Assembly: GCA_016125375.1 (NCBI GenBank)
Contig: WGLU01000001.1
Span: forward strand, 434,001 to 498,000
Direction of reading: 5' to 3'
From: Pseudomonadota bacterium
GTDB taxonomy: Bacteria > Pseudomonadota > Alphaproteobacteria > UBA1280 > RI-95
DNA length: 64,000 bases
The notes beneath the pieces are model-generated. The model was not told the DNA's origin and did no database searches. It worked only from the letters and a program-made list of their open reading frames with translations. Shown piece by piece: positions 5,043 to 6,754 of this stretch. The translations under genes and the position numbers were made by a program. Each line of letters opens with the position of its first letter. Positions within the stretch are counted from its first letter, which is position 1.

Positions 5043-5471
5043 ATGCATAACGATAACAAAATGCTAATCGCGCTGGGCATGACATTGATGCTCTCCGCGT
5101 GCGCCGAAACACTGACCACTCACGGTCAGGTTATTCGCGAGTCCCAACTGCAGGAACTCAAAGTCGGGCAAACCACCCGCGAGGATGTGATGGTGAATCT
5201 GGGCAGCCCGTCCAGCAAGGCTGTTTTTGATGAGGATCGCTGGATATACATCACCTCGCTAACCAAGTCCGAACCCCTTAAGCCCAACCAACTGGAAGAG
5301 CGCACCGTTATTACCCTGACCTTTAATAAGGAGGGAGTCCTCCAGGGCATGGATGTGCGCAACAAAAACGACGGTAAACCCATCGTGCTCAACAACCGGG
5401 TAACACCTACTCAGGGACAATCTCTGGGTATTGTTGACCAATTGATGGAGAACCTCGGGAAAGGGTTTTAA
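5043..5471 (+). CDS. bamE: BamE/SmpA-OmlA family outer-membrane lipoprotein
   Basis: 142 residues with a lipoprotein signal ending LMLSAC (lipidated Cys about residue 20). The SmpA/OmlA fold is shown by LQELKVGQTTREDVMVNLGSPS followed by the tryptophan-containing DRWIYITSL strand. BamE helps the BAM complex insert outer-membrane beta-barrel proteins. It is divergent from the bc1 chaperone, a common alphaproteobacterial pairing. Two bases separate its stop from the next gene, a pseudopilin-like protein, so the three plus-strand genes here look like one transcript. Confidence 0.92.
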   Translation: MHNDNKMLIALGMTLMLSACAETLTTHGQVIRESQLQELKVGQTTREDVMVNLGSPSSKAVFDEDRWIYITSLTKSEPLKPNQLEERTVITLTFNKEGVLQGMDVRNKNDGKPIVLNNRVTPTQGQSLGIVDQLMENLGKGF

Positions 5472-5473
5472 CC

Positions 5474-6100
5474 ATGCGGACCACCCTTTGGTCAGTCAAC
5501 AAACAACGCGGTGCCCTCTTTGGCATTGATGCGCGTATCTCTATGGCCATTTTCGGAGCCCTGTCGATTGTGCTGGGGTATACGGCCTTCGGTAAAATCA
5601 CCTCCTCGCGGGAGGCTGCCCTGTACAAGGAATTACAGGAAATCGACTATGCCATCCGCCAATACCAGTCGGACATGGGCACGTTCCCCATGTTTACCAT
5701 CAACGGCGCGACCTTCTCGCCGGGTGTTGTCGTCAACGCCACGCGCTCCTATAACGCGCTTTGGTCAACCACGAACAACGTGGCAGCCGCTTTTATTCCT
5801 AAATGGAACGGCCCCTACCTGAACACCGATACGGACAACCACCCCATCTACGGCACATACTCCGTTATCTATGCAACAGGCACCCGTGGCATCTGCACCA
5901 GCACCAACACCTGCTATGCCTGGGTGAGCCTGACCAACGTGCCGGCGGAAGTATGGTCGGCCGTTAACCGCTATGTGGATGAGGACAACGGCGCCTCGCC
6001 AGAAGCAACACCCGTCACCACGGGCCGTGTACAGGCCGATGGTTTGACTGACCCCCGCATTTTGTACTACCGCAGTGTCGGGCGTTCGCCCGGCTACTAA
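5474..6100 (+). CDS. Pseudopilin-like membrane-anchored protein, copy 1
   Basis: 208 residues. A short positive N-terminus is followed by QRGALFGIDARISMAIFGAL and a hydrophobic helix (about residues 14-40), then an amphipathic helix EAALYKELQEIDYAIRQYQSDMG and TFP. The layout resembles type II secretion pseudopilins (GspG-like: N-terminal helix, then YxxDxGxxP and WxGPYL), and KWNGPYL is present. The classical prepilin peptidase site (G then FTLIE) is not; there is an Asp instead of the +5 Glu. The next gene is a clear paralogue. No secretion ATPase or prepilin peptidase lies nearby, so the role is unknown. Confidence 0.7.
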   Translation: MRTTLWSVNKQRGALFGIDARISMAIFGALSIVLGYTAFGKITSSREAALYKELQEIDYAIRQYQSDMGTFPMFTINGATFSPGVVVNATRSYNALWSTTNNVAAAFIPKWNGPYLNTDTDNHPIYGTYSVIYATGTRGICTSTNTCYAWVSLTNVPAEVWSAVNRYVDEDNGASPEATPVTTGRVQADGLTDPRILYYRSVGRSPGY

Positions 6101-6117
6101 AAACAAGGAGCTGACCC

Positions 6118-6699
6118 ATGATGTACCGTTTCATAACAAGCCAGCGTGGCGCAATGTTTGGGCTGGATGCCCGTGTGGCCATGGCTATTTTCGGGATTGC
6201 CTCTGTTCTGGTGGGCACGGCAGTGTTCGGCAGCATGCGCGAGTTTGAATACCGCGCCCTGTCGAAAGAGCTGAAGGAAATGCATGTAGCCATTGAAGGC
6301 CTGCATAACGACCTGCAGGCGAGTGTCCGCAGCCGCCTGACCACGCCCAGCGATGCCAACAGCTTTACTGCGCTCTATGACAGCAGCGTGCTGACAGCCG
6401 CAGGCCAGCAAAAATGGCTGGGGCCCTACATCAATCTGCGCTCCAATACCCACCCCAGCTATGGCACCATGTCGCTGACGCGCGCCGCCGTGAGCAACGC
6501 TCCCGGTACAGCATGTACGGCCACTGACGGTACCTGTTATCTGTACGTGGTTTACAGCGCCGTGCCGGACGGGATTATCGCTGACTTAGATGACGCGCTT
6601 GATAACGGCGATGGCGCAACAGCAGGCAAGGTCCAGTGGTCGGTTGTTGCAGGTCAGACCGACACGCTCTACTTCCGGACCATGAAGAACATCCGCTAG
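6118..6699 (+). CDS. Pseudopilin-like membrane-anchored protein, copy 2
   Basis: 193 residues, paralogue of the preceding gene. The N-terminal block QRGAMFGLDARVAMAIFG matches copy 1 closely. C-terminal blocks shared with copy 1 are KWxGPYxN, HPxYGTxS, TCYxxV, VP and the final D-x-LYFR. The middle part differs in length and sequence, which suggests an old duplication followed by divergence into two subunits. AAGGAG stands before the ATG and the gap to copy 1 is 17 bases. A terminator follows, ending the bamE transcript. Function is not known. Confidence 0.7.
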   Translation: MMYRFITSQRGAMFGLDARVAMAIFGIASVLVGTAVFGSMREFEYRALSKELKEMHVAIEGLHNDLQASVRSRLTTPSDANSFTALYDSSVLTAAGQQKWLGPYINLRSNTHPSYGTMSLTRAAVSNAPGTACTATDGTCYLYVVYSAVPDGIIADLDDALDNGDGATAGKVQWSVVAGQTDTLYFRTMKNIR

Positions 6700-6712
6700 T
6701 TATAACGACAGG

Positions 6713-6739
6713 AAAAAAGCCCGCTTGATGCGGGCTTTT
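6713..6739 (+). terminator. Bidirectional terminator between pseudopilin 2 and nusB
   Basis: Six-pair stem gcccgc ttgat gcgggc with an A-run before and TTTT after. It lies between convergent genes and should work on both strands. Confidence 0.88.
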
Positions 6740-6754
6740 CTTAATAAAGCAGAT

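Follow-up and report, generated by a model that had tools for sequence, protein, structure and literature searches.

Paralogous bamE-linked proteins of an alphaproteobacterium are probable members of the type IV pilin superfamily and carry a putative variant class III signal

What are two proteins with a pilin-like start doing behind bamE, in a stretch of DNA that holds no assembly machinery? The question comes from the window analyzed here, the whole 64,000-nucleotide stretch G000:C9:434001-498000 of a genome of 1.98 Mb in 9 contigs. An original prediction likened the two proteins, P1 and P2, to GspG pseudopilins and suggested that they could be subunits of an undescribed envelope filament or secretion device linked to outer-membrane biogenesis. 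The features that bear on it, in positions of the window, are as follows.

5043-5471, + strand: bamE, first gene of the presumed transcript (PF04355, E 4.2e-14, 52.5 bits against a cut-off of 23.2)
5474-6100, + strand: P1, pilin-like protein of 208 aa (sequence, homology and predicted fold)
5474-5515, + strand: proposed leader peptide of P1, 14 residues ending in RGA, with a putative cut after A14, from the register of GspG and mature pilins
5516-5677, + strand: proposed mature N-terminal segment and long helix of P1 (L1 F2 G3 I4 D5 A6 R7 and onward; helix 20-68 in the model)
5801-5818, + strand: KWNGPY motif of P1, seen in the sequence and common to GspG (WNGPY or WSGPY in GspG of other genomes)
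6118-6699, + strand: P2, pilin-like protein of 193 aa (sequence and homology)
6118-6153, + strand: proposed leader peptide of P2, 12 residues ending in RGA, with a putative cut after A12, in the same register as P1
6412-6429, + strand: KWLGPY motif of P2, seen in the sequence
about 6710-6743, + strand: predicted intrinsic terminator 3' of P2, ahead of the convergent nusB (hairpin and U tract, -17.7 kcal/mol, z -3.7)

The bamE assignment is sound, and because only 2 nt separate bamE from P1 and 17 nt separate P1 from P2, with a hairpin and U tract behind P2, all three genes are likely to lie on one transcript, as had been proposed. In the related genome G002, a 663-aa membrane protein (L057:5568-7559; acyltransferase-like by eye) separates nusB from the bamE-linked pilins.

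P1 and P2 are true paralogues. BLASTP aligns them at E 9e-31 with 34% identity across 202 columns, and their Smith-Waterman score of 250 compares with a maximum of 75 among 1000 shuffles. Because the parts behind the helix, taken without the first 43-45 residues, still score 149 when shuffles reach at most 58 (n=1000), the likeness is not confined to the hydrophobic helix. The count of 18 identical among 32 positions from QRGA onward was reproduced exactly, and the predicted common motifs are present as KW[NL]GPY[LI]N, HP[IS]YGT[YM]S and a C-terminal LY[YF]R. Domain models were of little use for P1 and P2 alone: P1 scores 12.8 bits against Pfam T2SSG (PF08334; cut-off 21, best E 0.12), P2 has no T2SSG match in the Pfam search, and the NCBIfam rows for both look like chance matches. 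At E up to 1, T2SSG matches 6 of the 21 members of our family profile A3 (best 0.00066), and the cut-off is exceeded by a J-like protein of the genome G005 that has the start block of the family (22.6 vs 21).

Structure prediction against pilins, which the original prediction had suggested as a check, gave type IV pilins or pseudopilins as the leading matches, well above unrelated chains. The AlphaFold2 model of P1 has modest confidence (pLDDT 65, pTM 0.58). In VIA-align its first 13 rows are all type IV pilins, led by PilA1 (Z 8.7, 2.9 A over 115), TcpA (7.7), PilS (7.0) and CofA (6.8), and unrelated kinases begin at Z 3.9. A paralogue linked to assembly machinery in UBA6503 gave a more confident model (pLDDT 76), which matched PilA1 (Z 11.4, 2.5 A over 116), CofA (9.2), PulG (7.9) and EpsG (7.5); Foldseek found PilA1 for it at 9e-4 and returned nothing at E below 0.001 for P1. 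The rows for the paralogue include GspG chains and those for P1 do not, an absence that proves nothing. A profile search of the PDB was weak, with Cry6Aa helices in the top two rows (0.011 and 0.5) and a pilin third at 0.51, and served as a register hint only. The models thus show the long N-terminal helix and pilin-type beta sheet of the type IV pilin superfamily, and together with the profile register and the WxGPY motif the predicted folds place both proteins in the type IV pilin/GspG superfamily, as the predicted kinship with GspG-like pseudopilins required.

The same register bears on the cleavage site. When profile A3 was searched against 385 genomes of the class, it found full-length relatives and, in 9 other genomes, a partial stretch that begins at V8 of GspG-type proteins. 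The canonical G[FY]TLxEL lies directly ahead of the match in 6 of 10 such loci; in the other 4 the displayed frame stops short of the signal. Transferred to the P1/P2 family, this register gives Ala before the cut, followed by [ML]1 F2 G3 [LI]4 D5 A6 R7. Mature pilins agree: the first mature residue of CofA aligns with L15 of P1, that of TcpA with A14, and both with M22 of the UBA6503 paralogue. Glu is usual at +5 of type IV pilins. The strict class III signal, a charged leader ending in Gly with a hydrophobic +1 and Glu at +5, is replaced here by Ala at -1 and Asp at +5. The claim that a classical cleavage site is missing therefore stands insofar as FTLIE is absent, but the alignments point to an altered site, not to a missing one: a class III signal in the variant form RGA/[LM]FG[IL]D. 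Because this is a variant of the same signal layout, what we claim is kinship with the superfamily and not a standard prepilin.

A pilin needs a machine, and the original prediction had noted none nearby. This is correct for the window but not for the genome, where the proposed search for a prepilin peptidase and an ATPase found both in one operon on contig C1, led by a third paralogue and conserved in relatives.

L006:7423-16050 (contig C1), - strand: machine operon with ATPase, platform, K-like and J-like pseudopilins and A24 peptidase
L006:15433-16050, - strand: third paralogue, first gene of the operon, 205 aa, start block QRGAMFGLDAR
Within the L006 operon, - strand: ATPase (T2SSE 8.5e-67; MshEN 25.6 bits vs cut-off 23.1)
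Within the L006 operon, - strand: platform protein (T2SSF 2.7e-14)
Within the L006 operon, - strand: 382-aa protein without a Pfam family, putative PilM/N-GspL counterpart by order and layout
Within the L006 operon, - strand: 171-aa protein without a Pfam family, putative PilO/GspM counterpart by order and layout
Within the L006 operon, - strand: PilP/GspC-like protein (T2SSB 0.0014, under cut-off)
Within the L006 operon, - strand: K-like protein, start QRGNFSPFMIG, no acid at the fifth place
Within the L006 operon, - strand: J-like protein, 379 aa, start QHGAMFSMDAR, without a Pfam match in the own-genome copy
Within the L006 operon, - strand: A24 peptidase (A24 1.2e-9), without the methylase domain
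L022:7414-9207, about 16 kb from the C1 operon: secretin with a lipobox (Secretin 4.4e-20; best NCBIfam model MshL 5e-34)

The genome thus holds a PilB/GspE-type ATPase, a PilC/GspF-type platform, a prepilin peptidase and a secretin, the set that makes up a machine of this superfamily. All 9 A24 proteins that were aligned keep both catalytic-type Asp residues. A C1-type machine was found in 10 genomes as far as their contigs reach (one contig scan): UBA6503, MED694, UBA2136, ANT-120, OFTM141, BWSM_27, SB9153_S2_bin_2, UBA12223, KhW_metabat.34 and MarineProteo1_Bin2. A family pilin stands directly before the ATPase at 7 of the 10 loci, the exceptions being BWSM_27, SB9153_S2_bin_2 and UBA12223, and the lipobox secretin forms a pair with its upstream partner gene in 6 of 6 order genomes examined.

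The C1 operon is not the only locus of its kind in the genome, and two others have to be weighed.

L020:5559-16852 (G000:C9:391559-402852), about 31-42 kb before the window: canonical type II secretion system (T2SS) with GspD, E, F, G and downstream genes
L021:3676-8625 (G000:C8), with a counterpart at L121 (G003:C39): second pilus-like (type IVb-like) locus with a lipoprotein secretin, a 765-aa ATPase and a 198-aa pilin (GYTIDQTILIVAVIAIL)

Since this T2SS and a second A24 peptidase coexist with the C1 operon, we chose between the machines and between the peptidases by the third paralogue and by conservation. Service of P1 and P2 as additional pseudopilins of the T2SS, whose GspG starts GFTLMELL, has in its favor that the genome encodes that system, but we regard it as highly improbable. 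Of 6 order genomes, only G000 and G002 have a large GspD (frame over 1000 aa), whereas bamE-linked pilins and a C1-type machine are present also without it, as in the 99% complete G003. Moreover, a search of the genome with P1 found P2 (1.4e-24) and the C1-linked third paralogue (1.4e-14, 31% identity), and the GspG of the T2SS is not among its matches. Profile A3 does match the G003 pilin of the second pilus-like locus, at 3.6e-7. No PilT-like retraction ATPase was found among the T2SSE matches of the genome; the two further matches, the ATPases on contigs C3 and C4, had been considered as possible PilT but are VirB11-like. The second A24 peptidase is kept in several order genomes (L198, L199, L193, L023), so these genomes may retain two prepilin peptidases; it adjoins a CCA-adding-like gene (by eye) in G000 and G004.

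The linkage to bamE is itself conserved. Among 13 genomes examined, bamE is followed by two or three family pilins in 10 of the 10 in which the next genes are visible (G000, G002-G005, MED694, UBA2136, BWSM_27, G211 and G380). The remaining three are ANT-120 and SB9153_S2_bin_2, where the contig ends at bamE, and UBA12223 (G001), where bamE gave no match at E 0.01; G097 and UBA2136 were counted as one genome. The search for homologous pairs beside bamE in other genomes, also proposed at the outset, hence bore out the predicted link. A single-sequence search of relatives, 60 genomes in all, had turned up the family in 6, each from the order of the own genome and the own genome among them, but a restriction to the order was dropped because the profile search over the class found full-length matches outside it (G097, G211, G380 and G303). 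A linkage so constant would suit membrane-anchored envelope proteins that aid BAM or the outer membrane without ever assembling into fibers, and polymerization is here a prediction; we nevertheless give that reading only a slim chance, given that the GA[ML]FG[IL]DAR block is kept beyond the needs of hydrophobicity and is common to machine-linked subunits, that the fold is of the pilin type and that homologues head a pilus-type operon. In a tree of 67 pilins, machine-linked, P1-type and P2-type proteins form separate groups across genomes, with many weak inner branches (16 of 64 starred); the tree holds 18 sampled copies each from G001 and G004, and bam1_G003 and bam3_G004 are absent from it, the selection motif having excluded FGV.

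G001 and G004 are two small genomes in which the family is greatly expanded. A 27-nt pattern for GA[ML]F[GS][ILM]D[AT]R occurs 4 times in the own genome, 3-7 times in eight relatives, but 64 times in UBA12223 (1.3 Mb) and 69 times in MarineProteo1_Bin2 (G004; 1.0 Mb), both of them fragmented MAGs, which qualifies copy counts and synteny; the reversed pattern has 0 matches in every genome. G004 and MarineProteo1_Bin2 are equated on the grounds that the pattern matches agree in position and number. The motif [WY]xGPY is carried by 60 of the 64 and 67 of the 69 genes, one of the 69 being a 13-aa frame. For 23 and 18 genes, respectively, identity within the first 34 residues is 91 and 93% and within the heads 29 and 28%, and the codon differs at 48 and 46% of identical residues, where drawing codons independently from genome codon use would give 54 and 49%. 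Because the synonymous differences approach this expectation, codon usage indicates that selection on the protein, not recent copying, maintains the assembly segment. The nearest paralogous head has a median identity of 37 and 36% and a maximum of 50 and 52% (60 of 64 and 63 of 69 heads, after leaving out those shorter than 150 or longer than 260 aa, open-ended or containing X). Between the two genomes only 24 reciprocal best head pairs were found, with a median identity of 45% and 5 above 60%, whereas 21 non-pilin pairs reach a median of 72% and the motor ATPase reaches 91%. In the tree, the copies of both genomes intermix in a single star-like radiation, and the machine-linked pilin of MarineProteo1_Bin2 falls within it.

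The UBA12223 copies show a further peculiarity. In 18 of its 64 pilin genes, an in-frame repeat of about 110 bp sits at one identical site inside the presumed leader, between KGAMFGL-E and a second GAMFGLDAR (e.g. L065:3581-4333, L071:3838-4569 and L187); the same test found it in 0 of 69 genes of MarineProteo1_Bin2. A genome search with one repeat copy gave 22 matches in UBA12223, most at pilin leaders, and 1 each in G004 and G005, and the repeat also stands at the start of the K-like gene in the UBA12223 machine operon (L080:13465-14166). It looks like a leader-targeted repeat element.

What, then, does the C1 machine build? We consider it likely that P1 and P2, with their variant class III signal, are subunits of the type IV pilin superfamily that this machine polymerizes into a type IV pilus-like surface filament. 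A periplasm-spanning, T2SS-like pseudopilus that secretes proteins, with P1 and P2 as its pseudopilins rather than surface subunits, is possible but on balance unlikely. It would account for the GspG-like WxGPY motif and register, the match of a J-like protein to T2SSG and the lack of a PilT-type ATPase; the K-like protein, too, has no acid at the fifth place, where GspK is not known to carry one. However, the best structural matches are surface pilins, the subunits are pilin-sized and most have a Cys pair, the diversification of heads in two relatives fits surface exposure better, and the genome has a separate canonical T2SS. Because of the structural matches and the head diversification, a surface filament appears the most likely product and is favored over the pseudopilus.

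For this surface filament, a chain of events can be proposed. An A24 peptidase, the best candidate being that of the C1 operon, would cut the leader after GA; Asp5 would take the place of Glu5 in subunit docking; the C1 ATPase and platform would polymerize the subunits on a start made by the K-like and J-like proteins; and the fiber would leave through the lipoprotein secretin. P1 and P2 are probably co-assembled and perhaps minor subunits. The link to bamE is robust; that co-transcription ties their supply to outer-membrane assembly is a guess. A wider idea, which we hold tentatively and regard as possible rather than probable, is that the lineage assembles its surface filament from modules under a distinct Asp5 signal: a single invariant assembly segment would carry many different heads, of which the bamE operon has a fixed two or three and genomes of about 1 Mb in the MarineProteo1 family maintain more than 60 each, and combinations of heads would serve attachment or the evasion of phages and grazers. 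The two reduced genomes represent a natural experiment in this respect, with a constant assembly segment, diverging heads and few recognizable counterparts between sister genomes.

Glu5 is regarded as central to pilin docking. Asp5 appears tolerable in a pilin because, in the available part of the report on TcpB, the E5D change only slightly reduces function (PMC5207764), and the P1/P2 family, as a natural Asp5 pilin family, is useful for the docking question. The suggestion of an undescribed device survives in part: no equivalog cut-off in NCBIfam is passed by the C1-type machine, and our search of the open literature by topic found no paper on it or its pilins, but the system belongs to the known type IV pilus/type II secretion superfamily.

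Comparison with characterized systems delimits its place there. With GspG, PulG and EpsG (PF08334) the family shares the long N-terminal helix, an in-register alignment, W-x-G-P-Y and the pilin-type sheet; it differs in Asp for Glu at +5, Ala before the cut, the Cys pair, HPxYG where GspG has DPW[GS], and a score under the Pfam cut-off. The MSHA-type pilus is approached by the C1 secretin, through its best NCBIfam model, and by the MshEN match of the ATPase; however, the MshL equivalog score of 117.6 bits is far under the cut-off of 250.2, so that the secretin falls outside MSHA, and it is encoded outside the operon. The DUF1559 (PF07596) proteins of planctomycetes have a prepilin-like start and likewise form a large paralogous set within one genome. 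As far as the available part of the source goes, Rhodopirellula baltica has 74 such genes, called solute-binding (PMC2754498). They belong to an unrelated lineage and domain, whereas here 64-69 copies are packed into 1.0-1.3 Mb. The closest structural counterparts are TcpA, CofA, PilS and C. difficile PilA1 (PilA1 ahead of or tied with TcpA and CofA), with which the family shares a subunit size near 190-200 aa and probably a mature chain that begins with Met or Leu; in contrast, sequence identity to them is only 9-19%, the signal consensus differs, and the models used did not find the gene set of their pili. Within a known superfamily, the P1/P2 system forms a divergent branch, set apart by a variant signal, a fixed linkage to bamE and an unusual expansion in one family.
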